Origin: Acidimicrobiales bacterium AG-410-I20
GTDB lineage: Bacteria; Actinomycetota; Acidimicrobiia; Acidimicrobiales; MedAcidi-G1
NCBI GenBank assembly: GCA_949538625.1
Contig: CATISD010000038.1
Span: 1 to 37,759, forward strand
Length of the DNA stretch: 37,759 nt
Reading direction: 5' to 3'
Both the position numbers and the translations under genes were made by a program. Of the stretch, positions 2,505-32,215 are shown piece after piece (position 1 is the stretch's first letter; the number at the start of each line of letters is the position of its first letter). Below the pieces are notes generated by a model. The model searched no databases and was not told the origin of the DNA. It worked only from the letters and a program-made list of their open reading frames with translations.

Positions 2505-2972
2505 ATGCTTGAAGAAGGAAACCCAGCACCACAATTTTCAGCACCAGATCAGCATGGAAACATGATTAACCTTGAAGACTTTTCTGGCCAATGGATAGCT
2601 CTTTGGTGGTACCCCAAAGCAAGCACACCTGGTTGAATGCTTGAAGGAGGAGGGTTCCGTGACCGAACTCTCGAATTTAAAGCCCTGAATGCAGTAATCA
2701 TTGGTGCAAGTTTCGACACTATCGAAGAACAAAAAGCATTTGCCGAAAACCAAAACTATGAATTTTCTCTACTTTCAGACCCTGATCGCACAATGGGCGA
2801 GGCATATAAAGTAATTCGCCCCCCTGATCACCCATTGGTCAGCCTTCCAGAACGGGTTACTTATTTGATTTCCCCTGACGGGTTGATCGCTAAGGCTTAT
2901 GACCCTAGTAGCGCGACAAGTTTAGATGAGCATTCCGCACAGTTGCTCATTGACATAGAAGAGTTGAGTTGA
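2505..2972 (+). CDS. Peroxiredoxin (BCP/AhpC-TSA type), predicted selenoprotein with Sec44
   Basis: ATG at 2505 follows a GGAGG 4 bases away. The frame is open to a TGA at 2634-2636 and then continues without interruption to a second TGA at 2970-2972, giving 155 residues if the first TGA is read. Upstream residues are WWYPKASTPG and downstream MLEGGGFRD; the family consensus is YPKA.TPGCT.EA..FRD, so TGA occupies the peroxidatic Cys position exactly. No Cys occurs anywhere else in the product. The later FRD, GASFD, SDPDR and PERVTYLI motifs are intact, which argues against decay. A stem-loop follows the TGA (2650-2672). Predicted role: selenol-dependent reduction of peroxides in the cytoplasm. 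The stop overlaps the next gene's TTG. Pseudogenisation is the alternative. Confidence 0.82.
2650..2672 (+). promoter_or_regulatory. Candidate bacterial SECIS stem-loop of the peroxiredoxin gene
   Basis: Starting 13 bases after the TGA at 2634-2636, GAGGGUUC (2650-2657) pairs with GAACUCUC (2665-2672) in eight consecutive pairs (one G-U), leaving the 7-base loop CGUGACC. A GU dinucleotide sits in the apical loop at 2659-2660. Bacterial SECIS elements that bind SelB are short hairpins directly downstream of UGA with a GU in the apical loop. No clear bulged U is present in the stem, so the match is incomplete. This is inference from pairing by eye, not a folded energy model. Confidence 0.5.
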
Positions 2973-27318: not shown

Positions 27319-28617
27319 TCAGAGAGCCTTTAGGAAACCCAGAATCAATGCTCGGTCGCTAGAAGAAAGATCGGCGTAAGCATCTCTAGAAGATTGTGCT
27401 TCACCACCATGCCAAAGAATTGCTTCTTCCAGCGTCCGCGCTCTCCCATCATGTAAGTAGTGTTCGTGCCCAACAGTGCTTGTTAAACCAATGCCCCAGA
27501 GAGGAGGAGTGCGCCATTCAGAACTTTCGGCTCCTTTCTGAGCCAATCCATCATCTAGGCCTGGACCCATGTCATGCAACAAGAGGTCTGTAAAAGGAAT
27601 GATCATTTGGTTAGAAAGGGCTCTTACTTCATGACTGCCAGTAACCCATGGTCTTGTTCGATGACAACCAGCGCACCCAATTTGTTCAAACCAAGCAGCT
27701 CCCATTTGTATGTTGGGGTCAAGGTGTCCCCGTAGAGCCGGCACTGCCACGGTAGAAGTATAAAAAGCAGTGTCTTCTAAGAAATCAGAGCCAAAAAGTT
27801 CAGAAGCTCGTTCGTAGTCGAGTGAAAGATCTTCAGTAAAAGCACTTTCAGTGAAACTAAGAATTGTGGGTTCCTGTGCTTTCCATCCAAATCTTCCAAT
27901 CTCTCCGTCAAACTCTGCTACTCGACCGGATATGCCATCAGAATCTTGATCGTATGGATCCGCTCCTAATGAAATATCAGAAGCAGGAATAGTTTCAAGA
28001 AGCCCTCCTCCAAAAACAGGGGGAGCTACACGAAGAGAAGTAAACACCGAGTCAAGGTCTAAAGAATCTACTTGAATTACCGGTTTACGTAGCGAGAAGG
28101 GAGTTCCATCACCCATCGTCCCAGATGTTTCTTCCCACGTAACAGTTAATGAACCTTCTTTAGAAACCCCTTGATCTTGGAGTTGAAGCCCAATTTCAGG
28201 ATGAGGGATCATAGCCCCCGCTTCGTCAACGCCGAGACTCACCATGAGTGTCGGCCCAGAAGCTCTTACTAATCCTTCTGGAGCAACAGAGCGCCCATTG
28301 TTTATATGGCAACCCAAACAACTATTTCCATTTCTTGGGTCTCCTAACCCATCTTCGATACTCCAAATGTGCTCAAATGGAACATCTCCATCGGCGAATC
28401 TAATGCGTTCCGGTAAGCCCATAGCCCGGTTAGACAAGCTAAAAGAACGTTCATTTGACGCCATGGTTGTTCCCTCGCCGCCGCTTCGTAAGAAAAGCTC
28501 CGGAGGTGCGGTATTAAGTGACGGACTGTCCGACCTAGCGATCAGAAACCACAGCCCTGCAGTCAGGGCCGCGATTACTGAAAGTTGTAGTAGGCGGTTA
28601 CCCGCCTGAGAAGTCAC
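27319..28617 (-). CDS. Di-heme oxidoreductase (DUF1111/DHOR family) with two CxxCH sites
   Basis: 432 residues. A signal-anchor-like hydrophobic N-terminus (residues 8-27) sends it across the membrane. Two c-type heme sites are visible: CLGCH (100-104) and CAGCH (315-319). The DQDSDGISGRV segment and the LWGIGLTS..HYLHDGRA segment fit the di-haem oxidoreductase family related to MauG/bacterial cytochrome c peroxidase. Needs cytochrome c maturation. Starts at GTG overlapping the preceding stop (GTGA), so coupled with the beta-helix gene. Electron partner unknown, but the adjacent cupredoxin is a candidate. Confidence 0.87.
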   Translation of the reverse strand: MTSQAGNRLLQLSVIAALTAGLWFLIARSDSPSLNTAPPELFLRSGGEGTTMASNERSFSLSNRAMGLPERIRFADGDVPFEHIWSIEDGLGDPRNGNSCLGCHINNGRSVAPEGLVRASGPTLMVSLGVDEAGAMIPHPEIGLQLQDQGVSKEGSLTVTWEETSGTMGDGTPFSLRKPVIQVDSLDLDSVFTSLRVAPPVFGGGLLETIPASDISLGADPYDQDSDGISGRVAEFDGEIGRFGWKAQEPTILSFTESAFTEDLSLDYERASELFGSDFLEDTAFYTSTVAVPALRGHLDPNIQMGAAWFEQIGCAGCHRTRPWVTGSHEVRALSNQMIIPFTDLLLHDMGPGLDDGLAQKGAESSEWRTPPLWGIGLTSTVGHEHYLHDGRARTLEEAILWHGGEAQSSRDAYADLSSSDRALILGFLKAL

Positions 28618-30245
28618 CCTGCAGAAGGGACACCGATGCTATCAATATCAATTGATGGTGGCGGCCCGGCAGGCACTCCCTCGGCAATGTCAGCATCTGG
28701 CATTGATGGTTGGTCACTAGGAGCCGGCATCGTGTCATAATCCACTGTGCCATATCCGTCACCACCAGGTCCCGAGTTCGGGACAGCAGTATCAGTAGTG
28801 TTCGTTGCTTCTCCGTCACACGGCATAAATGTTTCAATATCTGCAGGCGCAGAAGTAGTGAAAGTGTTATCAGAGAAACAGTTTCCTTTTGAGCCGTAGG
28901 TTCCATCTTCTTCAATGATCGATACGTAAGCTAAATCGAATTCACTACCAGAAACAACATTTTCTATAACAGTGTTGTCATTAGCTACCCAAAGATTCTG
29001 ATCAATGAAAATTGATAAAGCGATACCGGCATAAAAGTTGTCTTCTACTCGATTTCGCACGATCAAGTTGTCGTTACCTCCAGCGGCAACAATGCCAACA
29101 CCAAAACCTATATCCCAAGAAGCGCTACGTCGCGGTGTGTCTTCGTTGCCGTTATCAGTAACAAGGTTCCCCACAACAGTGATATTCCCTTGTGGCGCTA
29201 ATTCCTCTGAATCAAGAGTATTAGGTACTACACCTAGTCGGTTGTGTCTGAAAATAGAATTCATGATCACAATGTTGTCACTAGCGTTAGTTCCTGAGTA
29301 CCCAAGAGCGTTGTGTTCACTAATCACGTTGTCGATTACAGCATTGCAAGGGTTGCATTGACCGATGTAAAAACCAGAGTCAGGATGTCCGCTTCCATAG
29401 CTATGTTCAAAAACACCATTTTGAGCATTAAATGCGTAAATGCCGTAAAGGCCATTGTTATAAGCCGTTACATAAGAGGCGCGATAGCCATCAACAATAA
29501 TGTCTGTTCCATAGTCGCCAGTAAAGAAAACTCCATTAGAAGTATGTGAATGGACAGTCAAGTTCTCTATGGCTACACCGTTCGAGAACACTATGAAACC
29601 ATTAGGCCGTTCATGTTCGCCGTCAATAATGACTTCATTTCGGTCTAATCCACGAATCACCAAATCGTCGGTTTCCACGATCACTGACTCATAGTAAGTG
29701 CCAGGAGCGATCAGAATCAGATCACCAGGTAACGCATCATCAACTGCGTCTTGAATGGTGGCGTAATCATCTGGGACTCTCAAAGCATAAGGTAAAGGAT
29801 CTCCAGCTTCTCCGGCGAGCATTTCAAACTCTTCATCGGAAAGAAGCGAAATACATGCAATGGCAGCCTCTTCTACTGTCATAGCGTAAGCATCATCGTC
29901 CGTCATAATGGTTTCCATCATGGTTTCGTAGTCATCGCCAGATTCTTCATGGACGGTATCAACTATGCATTCTGTGTAATCAGAATTCGCAAAACCCAAA
30001 TCTTGTTCTAGGACTTCGTTAAGTATGTTAACGATTGCTGTTCGAAAATCTGACTCGTCGTCATCACCCGATTCGGCTTCTTCAACCGCTGCGGCTGTGG
30101 TTTCAACCGCGGCGGCTGTGGTTTCAACCGCGGCAGCTGTGGTTTCAACTACTTCAGCTGGTTCAGAAGAAGAGTCACTTCCTCCACAACTTGAAGCTAT
30201 AAAGGCCAATGAAAAAATGATTGCAAAAATTTTGTGAGTTTTCAT
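28614..30245 (-). CDS. Parallel beta-helix lipoprotein
   Basis: 543 residues. Lipoprotein signal with lipobox IASSCGG (Cys20), then a low-complexity linker of ETTAAAV repeats (residues about 34-57) and an acidic stretch. From about residue 155 ('DDYATIQDAVDDALPGD' and LIAPGTYYES) it is a right-handed beta-helix of the NosD/pectate-lyase-like kind, with repeating Asn-ladder turns. The C-terminus is Pro/Gly rich. Function unknown; NosD-type helices participate in copper-protein maturation, but this is only analogy. Co-transcribed with the di-heme gene. Confidence 0.85.
   Translation of the reverse strand: MKTHKIFAIIFSLAFIASSCGGSDSSSEPAEVVETTAAAVETTAAAVETTAAAVEEAESGDDDESDFRTAIVNILNEVLEQDLGFANSDYTECIVDTVHEESGDDYETMMETIMTDDDAYAMTVEEAAIACISLLSDEEFEMLAGEAGDPLPYALRVPDDYATIQDAVDDALPGDLILIAPGTYYESVIVETDDLVIRGLDRNEVIIDGEHERPNGFIVFSNGVAIENLTVHSHTSNGVFFTGDYGTDIIVDGYRASYVTAYNNGLYGIYAFNAQNGVFEHSYGSGHPDSGFYIGQCNPCNAVIDNVISEHNALGYSGTNASDNIVIMNSIFRHNRLGVVPNTLDSEELAPQGNITVVGNLVTDNGNEDTPRRSASWDIGFGVGIVAAGGNDNLIVRNRVEDNFYAGIALSIFIDQNLWVANDNTVIENVVSGSEFDLAYVSIIEEDGTYGSKGNCFSDNTFTTSAPADIETFMPCDGEATNTTDTAVPNSGPGGDGYGTVDYDTMPAPSDQPSMPDADIAEGVPAGPPPSIDIDSIGVPSAG
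30081..30143. repeat. Three tandem 21-bp units
   Basis: Units at 30081-30101, 30102-30122 and 30123-30143 differ by one or two bases each and encode ETTAAAV repeats in the linker of the beta-helix lipoprotein. Whole-codon units let copy number vary without frameshift. Confidence 0.8.
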
Positions 30246-30284
30246 GCCCTTTACTTTAGAGCATCCAGCAGAGAGAGAACGACC

Positions 30285-30776
30285 TCAGCCTGTAATCACA
30301 AAAATTTGACCTGTTTGCCCACGAGTGGCGGTGCCGTGAAAAGTGCAGAAATAAGGAAAGTAACCATCTTGTTCGAATCGCAAAGAAGCGGACCCAACTT
30401 CATCAAACAGATCTTCATTCAATCCGATAAACCATCCGGATTCGCCTTCCTCAAGTGACGGCATCACATTGTGTCGATTACGACCGTTATTCACCCAAGT
30501 GACTTTTGTGCCAGCGGAGACAGTAATTACACGATCATGAAAAACATTGTCCTCAATGCTGATAACAACTTCATCTTGTCCAGTGTAATCAATTGCATTA
30601 TCAGGTATTTCAAGCGCAACTAAAGGCGTTTCTTCAAAGTTGCCACTAATAGAGACAGGCCCAGAATTTACAGCACTACTACACCCAATAAGAAAAGAAA
30701 GAGTCAGAAGTGAAGGAATTAGGAGTTTCACGCCTAGAAACTTAGTGGCAGAGACAAGATTCTCCTCTGATTTCAA
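30285..30776 (-). CDS. Cupredoxin (plastocyanin/azurin-like) lipoprotein
   Basis: 163 residues if TTG 30776 is the start; a GTG at 30731 (removing 15 residues) would give a more typical signal peptide beginning at VKLLIPS. The lipobox LIGC gives Cys32. Ligands of a type 1 copper site are visible: His102 in RNRHNVMP, then Cys144 and His147 in YFCTFHGT. The expected axial Met of the usual C..HG....GMTG motif is replaced by Gln154 (RGQTG). Predicted periplasmic electron carrier. 7 bases separate it from the upstream esterase gene. Confidence 0.87.
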   Translation of the reverse strand: MKSEENLVSATKFLGVKLLIPSLLTLSFLIGCSSAVNSGPVSISGNFEETPLVALEIPDNAIDYTGQDEVVISIEDNVFHDRVITVSAGTKVTWVNNGRNRHNVMPSLEEGESGWFIGLNEDLFDEVGSASLRFEQDGYFPYFCTFHGTATRGQTGQIFVITG

Positions 30777-30783
30777 TCAAGAA

Positions 30784-31659
30784 CTAGGAGATATTCAAAG
30801 CATCCAATGTTCGAATCCACAAGTCGTGACGAGGATTCAAAATATCGAAATGTGTGGCAGTGTCATTAAAAATGCCTTCGTCATAAACAAGAAAATCGCT
30901 TTGGCTAATCGGAACTGTTAGGTCGTAGCGGCCATGAACTGCAATAATTCGTGACTCTATAACTCCAGGTGTTGCCACTCGATAATGTTCAGGCACTTCT
31001 TCGGGTTCACCACCCAGAAAAGCCTGAACAGCACCACGACCAAGGTTCTCTTCTGCTGCGACGTATAAATCAACAACTGCGGCTTGAGCAACAACGGTGC
31101 GGGGAAGAACTTTTGGATTACTGCCCGGATCCCCCTCACCAAGCCCCGACCTACCTGCAGCCCAAAGAGCCAAGTGGCCGCCCGCAGAATGACCAATGAA
31201 GGTCACATCGTCAAGATTTAAAGGCTCGTCCAATTCAGTTAGATAATCAATTCCGTCTGCTACGTCTTCTAGAGTCCCGGGGTAGCCTCCGCCGGGGATA
31301 CCGACGGCCCGATAGTCAAAATTCCAAGTTGCTACTCCACGATTAGCTGCATCATCGGCAAGGCCGGTCATAAGCGTCTCGTTGAATCCGGCTTTCCAAA
31401 ATCCTCCATGGATAAAAACTAAAACTGGGAAAGGTCCTTCCCCAGGAGGTATACGAAGGTTGCCGGCATTCCAAAGGCCATCTCCGTATTGAATTCTTTC
31501 CACTCGTACGACATCGACCGACACACTTGTTGTCGTAGTTATTTCAATATTTTGAGTTGTGAGATCTCCTGAAACCGATGTTTGACCAATCTCTGATTTA
31601 TCTCCGCACGCAGAAATAATGAAAAAACTGAGGAGGAAAACATAAAATACACGCACCAA
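30784..31659 (-). CDS. Alpha/beta-hydrolase lipoprotein (esterase-like)
   Basis: 291 residues. A signal peptide with lipobox IISAC (Cys18) is followed by an alpha/beta-hydrolase: oxyanion hole HGGFWKAG, nucleophile GHSAGGH, acid in HGRYDLTVP and base in NPRHDLW near the end. The HGG motif fits the hormone-sensitive lipase/carboxylesterase or arylformamidase-like group. Substrate unknown. Start TTG or the next GTG; neither has a good ribosome site. Sits 40 bases after the selenoprotein gene in the same direction. Confidence 0.85.
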   Translation of the reverse strand: MVRVFYVFLLSFFIISACGDKSEIGQTSVSGDLTTQNIEITTTTSVSVDVVRVERIQYGDGLWNAGNLRIPPGEGPFPVLVFIHGGFWKAGFNETLMTGLADDAANRGVATWNFDYRAVGIPGGGYPGTLEDVADGIDYLTELDEPLNLDDVTFIGHSAGGHLALWAAGRSGLGEGDPGSNPKVLPRTVVAQAAVVDLYVAAEENLGRGAVQAFLGGEPEEVPEHYRVATPGVIESRIIAVHGRYDLTVPISQSDFLVYDEGIFNDTATHFDILNPRHDLWIRTLDALNIS

Positions 31660-31699: not shown

Positions 31700-32215
31700 T
31701 CAGACTTTACGGTTAGTTTCAACGAATTTTTCAAAAGCATCACCAGTCAAATCGCCCATATGGCCGGTTACATCACCGGTAGCAGTCACTAAGACTGTTG
31801 CCGGTTGCCCAAACACTCCGAACCGTTCCCACACAGAACCATCAATATCAACCAAGTTGATAAGCCCAGTTAAGCTCCATTCATTCAAAGTGGCAGAAAC
31901 AACGTCAAGACCATCACCTTCACGCGCAACACCGACAATAGTTAGGTCCTCAATAGTTATGTTTGCCTCAGCGACCGTTGGGGCTTCTCGACGACAAATC
32001 GTTCAATTCGGATCCCAAAACCAAAATAAGACGTCCTTACCGCCAAGCGTTGCTACATCAAATTCTGAGCCATCAACCTGAACCGAAGTAAAGTTCAGAA
32101 TTTTTGGAATAGAGGAATCTAAGTTCTGGCTTTGATTATTTTCCCCGCTGCAACTTAAGGTTCCGACAACAAAAAAGACGAAACACAAACATACAACTAC
32201 TGGACGCAAACGCAC
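31700..32215 (-). CDS. Thioredoxin-like (TlpA/DsbE type) lipoprotein, predicted selenoprotein with a Sec71-T-I-C74 motif
   Basis: Two half-frames (32215-32003 and 31888-31700 as open stretches) lie in the same frame, separated only by TGA at 32005-32003, with sense codons throughout. Reading through gives 171 residues. Before TGA is VLFWFWDPN, after it TICRREAPTV; the family pattern is FWAPWC..CR.EAP, so TGA takes the first Cys of the CxxC active site, making U-x-x-C. Later VFGQPATVLV contains the cis-Pro loop. The N-terminus looks like a lipoprotein signal (Cys22, imperfect lipobox). GTG start with TAGAGT six bases upstream suggests leaderless mRNA. Role: extracytoplasmic disulfide or peroxide reduction. 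A disrupted gene is the alternative. Confidence 0.83.
31965..31984 (-). promoter_or_regulatory. Candidate SECIS hairpin of the thioredoxin-like gene
   Basis: On the mRNA, bases 19-38 after UGA can form GCC/GGC, then CA/UG and C/G pairs around a GGUC apical loop, with two mismatches. The loop GGUC resembles the GGUCU apex of the E. coli fdhF SECIS. The stem is imperfect and other foldings exist, so this is weak evidence by itself. Confidence 0.35.

Follow-up and report, generated by a model that had tools for sequence, protein, structure and literature searches.

In the window, the whole 37,759-nucleotide stretch of DNA analyzed here, one gene is interrupted by a stop codon that is almost certainly read as selenocysteine (Sec), judging from comparison with the gene's homologues. 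The product is very probably an extracytoplasmic thiol-disulfide oxidoreductase of the TlpA/DsbF type, predicted to be anchored in the membrane, in which Sec would replace the nucleophilic cysteine.

The probable selenocysteine gene and its active site

The gene runs along the minus strand from 32215 to 31700, where one TGA joins two half-frames at the first active-site position (FWFWDPN-U-TIC). A sequence-only reading of the same DNA had placed a single TGA between two same-phase half-frames at that position, without stating the strand, and had counted 171 residues in total; both statements hold. The main features are as follows.

31700–32215, minus strand: Sec-containing TlpA/DsbF-like gene; GTG start at 32213–32215, stop TGA at 31700–31702, 171 residues including Sec71
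32150–32215, minus strand: predicted lipoprotein signal with lipidated Cys22 at 32150–32152 (GTLSC); read directly from this copy, clearer lipoboxes in homologues
32003–32005, minus strand: in-frame UGA, putative Sec71, first position of UxxC; TGA shared by 45 distinct homologous stretches, replaced by Cys in lineages without SelA
31994–31996, minus strand: resolving cysteine Cys74 (TGT) of U-T-I-C; invariant in the 39-sequence alignment A2
31965–31984, minus strand: bSECIS hairpin of 7 consensus pairs, apical loop GGUC at 31973–31976, 26 nt after the UGA; covariation on alignment A1
31802–31804, minus strand: codon of the cis-Pro, Pro138 (GQPA), which faces the active site as is typical of the thioredoxin fold; invariant in A2

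The readthrough translation of 32215–31703 is VRLRPVVVCLCFVFFVVGTLSCSGENNQ...VLFWFWDPN-U-TICRREAPTVAE...GQPATVLV...FVETNRKV, with a single internal TGA, and its GTG start aligns with the ATG of homologue L021. Both arms of the gene are gene-like in codon usage, with 0.12 and 0.42 bits per codon, and the other five frames are not (−0.21 to −0.02). The list of open reading frames of at least 80 residues in the window contains none in the frame of this gene.

A mechanical survey of the window for frame pairs connected by a single TGA listed fewer than 20. The only other listed pair with a recognizable redox motif is a peroxiredoxin-like gene, presumably the first UGA gene of the sequence-only reading; it carries an 8-pair stem with the 7-nt loop CGUGACC approximately 21 nt after its TGA.

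2505–2972, plus strand: peroxiredoxin/BCP-like gene; TGA at 2634–2636 at the peroxidatic position, YPKASTPG-U-MLEGG (TxxU)

The bSECIS element and the selenocysteine machinery

The hairpin with a GGUC loop that had been proposed downstream of the TGA is present and covaries. Across 37 distinct sequences (A1), its seven-pair stem is 89.6% paired, against 72.0 ± 1.6 in shuffled alignments; 40 cells are changed on both sides of the stem (shuffled, 11.0 ± 2.5), and the covariation score is 0.522 (shuffled, 0.193 ± 0.023). All slid registers of the stem collapse in this test. All 45 sequences have GTC as the Val codon that holds the loop (31973–31975), whereas GTC accounts for 41% of the other valines of the same genes. 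Cys homologues mostly have different residues and codons at the loop position, and the hairpin is absent from them. The loop presumably recalls that of E. coli fdhF.

A bSECIS has been described as having a loop of 3–9 nt with an early G, a stem of 4–16 bp and a spacing of 16–37 nt (PMC13188914), and the family consensus falls within these limits, with its GGUC loop, its 26 nt and its seven covarying pairs. The published threshold for the minimum free energy is ≤ −7.5 kcal/mol. The median over the TGA rows is −9.5, and the window copy, folded as its 26-nt core, reaches only −5.0 kcal/mol; taken by itself, the window hairpin would therefore fall short of this threshold. Its upper stem contains an A·C mismatch that recurs in its genus, and a longer stretch around it favors another fold. 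The Rfam scan of the window gave no match at gathering thresholds. From the alignment, we regard the putative bSECIS of the window copy as recognized by homology and not by energy. When hairpins were enumerated for 65 TGA sequences, the loop lay at 26 nt in 42 and at 34–35 nt in 12 (L040, L081, L199, L204–L209, L211, L213, and L214); the six members without the GTC loop codon all belong to these 12.

The assembly itself encodes a tRNA-Sec (63 bits, above the Rfam cut-off), which ARAGORN confirms with the anticodon TCA. SelB scores 299 bits, above its cut-off, and SelA is encoded directly upstream of it on one contig. SelD (G000:C101:753-1673, L051) scores 362 bits, contains one in-frame TGA, and is probably a selenoprotein itself. 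On this gene content, the source genome is predicted to decode selenocysteine. The machinery whose lack would have spoken against the sequence-only reading is thus present, and its proposal of a selenoprotein agrees with selA, selB, selD, and tRNA-Sec in the genome as well as with the covarying bSECIS.

Relation to known thioredoxin-fold proteins

Pfam AhpC-TSA scores above its cut-off in the joined protein, which was modeled by AlphaFold with a pLDDT of 86.7. The top fold match in Foldseek is M. tuberculosis DsbF (3ios; TM 0.91 on the target, 1.5 Å), followed by DsbE/MPT53 (1lu4) and then ResA. The best sequence matches are likewise DsbF (78 bits) and DsbE/MPT53 (68 bits), and from the sequence and model-based fold matches these two appear as the closest solved relatives. 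Residues W65, F66, W67, P69, U71, C74, V81, and P138 are invariant in the 39 sequences of A2. The AlphaFold model, Foldseek, and A2 together display a thioredoxin fold in which a helix begins with C/UxxC and a cis-Pro is present; by motif and fold, the UxxC is placed within a TlpA-like domain of the cd02966 type. The structure prediction that had been suggested for the joined protein thus returned a DsbF-like fold, in keeping with the proposed thioredoxin-like protein with U-x-x-C.

The M. tuberculosis proteins DsbF and DsbE share WFW-x-P-x-C/U-x-x-C with the Sec protein. In contrast, they have Cys in the motif FW(A/T)PWC, while the window protein has Sec in FWDPNU. ResA, CcmG, and TlpA are membrane-anchored extracytoplasmic enzymes of the same superfamily and fold; however, the ResA model gives the Sec protein 44.8/170 bits, and the protein lies under every NCBIfam cut-off. 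The NCBIfam identities ResA, DsbE, TlpA, and StoA were rejected on these scores. Membership in NF041054, the 'ResA-like WAxxUGC motif-containing protein' (WAxxUGC_long), was also rejected (28 bits where the cut-off is 300; UxxC, not UGC). This model likewise describes a TlpA-like selenoprotein, but it differs in its UGC motif and 354 positions from the UxxC and 171 residues found here.

The homologues begin with a basic start, a hydrophobic stretch, and a lipobox cysteine, often followed by a Thr/Pro-rich linker. Their lipoboxes include LASLMACSE in L021, LLAGCAG in L026, and LLAAACG in many others; GTLSC of the window copy is weak and not canonical. With lipoprotein signals upstream in the homologues, we expect the thioredoxin domain to sit on the outer side of the membrane. 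The extracytoplasmic anchoring predicted earlier is therefore seen in the relatives more clearly than in the copy for which it was proposed.

The sequence-only reading had called an exported thioredoxin-like protein with U-x-x-C unusual, which overstates the case: such TlpA-like selenoproteins are published, and they are common in the order. In the accessible parts of PMC1088965, PMC2398784, and PMC13188914, a 'thiol-disulfide isomerase-like protein' (cd02966 TlpA-like, UxxC) is an inventoried selenoprotein family from the Sargasso Sea study, and the GOS study has 321 'Trx-like 1' (COG0526) UxxC proteins as well as 'Prx-like' UxxC groups. As there described, the published UxxC groups resemble the Sec gene in their TlpA-type thioredoxin fold, first-position Sec, Cys homologues, and downstream bSECIS, a likeness drawn from their descriptions. 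From this part of the inventory, the general type of the Sec gene is therefore already known.

Gene neighborhood

The genes downstream of the Sec gene point in the same direction.

30784–31659, minus strand: alpha/beta-hydrolase lipoprotein (BD-FAE), the next gene; adjacency to the Sec gene limited to this copy and the closest homologue
30285–30776, minus strand: cupredoxin-like lipoprotein; same orientation as the Sec gene in members of the genus and in part of genus g3
28614–30245, minus strand: right-handed beta-helix (NosD-like) lipoprotein; part of the Sec-gene neighborhood
27319–28617, minus strand: di-haem oxidoreductase (DHOR); part of the Sec-gene neighborhood

The cupredoxin, beta-helix, and di-haem genes are co-directional with the Sec gene in members of the genus and in some of the sister genus. 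In genera g1 and g3, these three genes (27319–30776 in the window) remain grouped, and the beta-helix lipoprotein among them has a linker of Thr-Thr-Ala repeats. Across the wider family, the Sec gene has leuC-leuD on one side and a divergently transcribed lpd-sucB-lipB-lipA cluster on the other (names from translations). Parts of this cluster are also near it in several further families of the order, and an aceE-like gene is near it in some of the other families (loci L052–L091). A functional link with lpd-sucB-lipB-lipA and leuCD was rejected on account of divergent transcription or unrelated function, and these surroundings look like old inherited gene order rather than a functional operon. 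Promoter and terminator scans showed no excess over shuffles.

Proposed mechanism and redox direction

In the mechanism that we propose, SelB on the GGUC hairpin would deliver Sec-tRNA at UGA71, and the lipoprotein would be exported and held in the membrane via Cys22. Sec71 would be the nucleophile, which either attacks a substrate disulfide or takes up electrons, and Cys74 could reasonably resolve the intermediate via a Sec71–Cys74 selenenylsulfide. The protein would have a reducing role, with electrons supplied by CcdA, and we consider this direction somewhat likelier than an oxidizing one. As for substrates, the exported cupredoxin- or cytochrome-type proteins encoded next door in the genus are a guess.

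The leaning toward a reductase comes from the presence of CcdA and the failure to find VKOR. The genome encodes one CcdA/DsbD-type membrane protein. VKOR was not found in this genome or in the 29 genus and family members searched; five further members of the order and three control genomes did yield it in the same search. However, the immediate neighbor of CcdA is a different TlpA of the Cys type, so that CcdA is no more than a candidate donor to the Sec protein. Cytochrome c maturation was rejected as a specific role, since the Sec gene has no such genes next to it and the CcdA-like gene adjoins the Cys-type TlpA.

Alternatively, in the manner of DsbE and DsbF of M. tuberculosis, the selenoprotein might act as an extracytoplasmic oxidant that introduces disulfides into exported proteins; we consider this unlikely. 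An active-site couple usually becomes more reducing when Sec takes the place of its first Cys, which speaks against an oxidant. So do the presence of a CcdA-like reductant carrier and, in the own genome and the 29 relatives searched, the lack of a VKOR that could re-oxidize it. The attraction of the oxidant role lies in kinship: DsbF and DsbE are the closest solved relatives by sequence and fold, and both oxidize hirudin in vitro, without insulin reductase activity (PMC3853704).

Conservation of the TGA and exchange with cysteine

With the joined protein as query, we searched 149 related genomes, of which 124 gave matches. Each of the best 35 matches contains exactly one TGA, and homologues of 85 and 73% identity retain it. 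The active-site column holds TGA in 45 distinct homologous stretches, always within FW-x-P-x-U-x-x-C, and TGC in three. For the three closest homologues, pairwise dN/dS is 0.13, 0.19, and 0.15 after the TGA, similar to the values over the 40 codons before it (0.13, 0.05, and 0.17). The values of 0.13–0.19 therefore indicate purifying selection on the frame past the TGA.

The alignment also reveals the Cys/Sec exchange that the sequence-only reading had proposed to look for, with Cys in the TGA column in lineages without SelA and SelB. The Cys members L075, L078, and L082 are nested in the Sec clade (support 98/93), where an aligned Cys replaces the UGA, and their genomes are 98–99% complete and have neither SelA nor SelB. 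The tree splits the WFWAP group from ordinary Cys-type TlpA paralogues (99/90). SelA is present in 66 of the 69 genomes with the TGA form and in 37 of the remaining 80 (Fisher p 7e-12), TGA status being taken from the matches listed, among which weak matches are partly missing; beyond the family, the counts are 33/33 for TGA genomes and 25/68 for the others. Because genomes share kinship, the p values overstate independence. In the three TGA genomes without SelA, all of them MAGs (85, 69, and 88% complete), SelB above the cut-off is missing as well, as expected if their assemblies lack a single selA-selB contig.

Sec forms recur in the phylum (Actinomycetota) beyond the order. Cys forms are common in Mycobacterium and its relatives, Nocardia, Lentzea, Nocardioides, and others, as found by a pattern scan of named genomes that back-translates Cys codons and thus detects Cys forms only, Sec forms being invisible to it.

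A pseudogene, or a sequencing or assembly error that put TGA for TGT, TGC, or TGG without recoding, is highly improbable. The window does come from a fragmented MAG (assembly of 1.50 Mb in 149 contigs, 85% complete), and lone changes to TGA are a frequent type of error, but the same column holds TGA across dozens of genomes, and an identical independent error is not credible. Selection past the TGA, the covariation of the bSECIS, and the co-occurrence with SelA speak equally against it, and we regard this explanation as refuted for practical purposes. That an altered genetic code or general readthrough inserts tryptophan or another residue at the UGA has a negligible probability, since homologues without TGA have Cys and not Trp in the column, TGA also terminates the Sec gene and many relatives, and the genome has a full Sec system. 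Collectively, the comparisons strongly support the selenocysteine reading of the TGA at 32003–32005.

Spread and significance of the family

Among the matches listed, TGA-containing TlpA-like paralogues number five in G123 and four each in G063, G074, and G089, which would represent the expansion of one selenoprotein family. One paralogue in G123 (L196, G123:C190:6500-8300) has two active-site TGAs, FWAPW-U-P-F-U-RRE, and a single GGUC-loop hairpin; its UxxU site could possibly form a diselenide. By these comparisons, the family is widespread, and often multi-copy, in a little-studied order of Actinomycetota.

In 2006, Actinobacteria were already described as a phylum rich in selenoproteins (PMC1794560). 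In a full-text search of open-licence papers, none joined Acidimicrobi- with selenocysteine and selenoprotein. The accessible parts of PMC1088965, PMC2398784, and PMC13188914 describe no lipoprotein anchoring, no order-wide spread or paralogue numbers, and no two bSECIS positions. Relative to these texts, we present as new, not found described, the spread of the family throughout the order, its several Sec paralogues per genome, the UxxU variant, and a bSECIS that occurs at either of two positions.

We tentatively raise the possibility that, in the VKOR-less lineages of the order, Sec-containing TlpA/DsbF lipoproteins may be the main extracytoplasmic thiol redox enzymes, with several Sec paralogues per genome, one of them UxxU (diselenide), and a bSECIS that has moved between 26 and 34–35 nt after the UGA. 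Since standard annotation cuts such genes at the TGA, a widely conserved exported redox enzyme has been missed across the whole order. The family offers unusually clear Sec/Cys exchanges tied to the absence of SelA and SelB, together with a strongly covarying bSECIS, and it makes testable whether extracytoplasmic Sec serves to reduce or to oxidize exported proteins in bacteria without VKOR.
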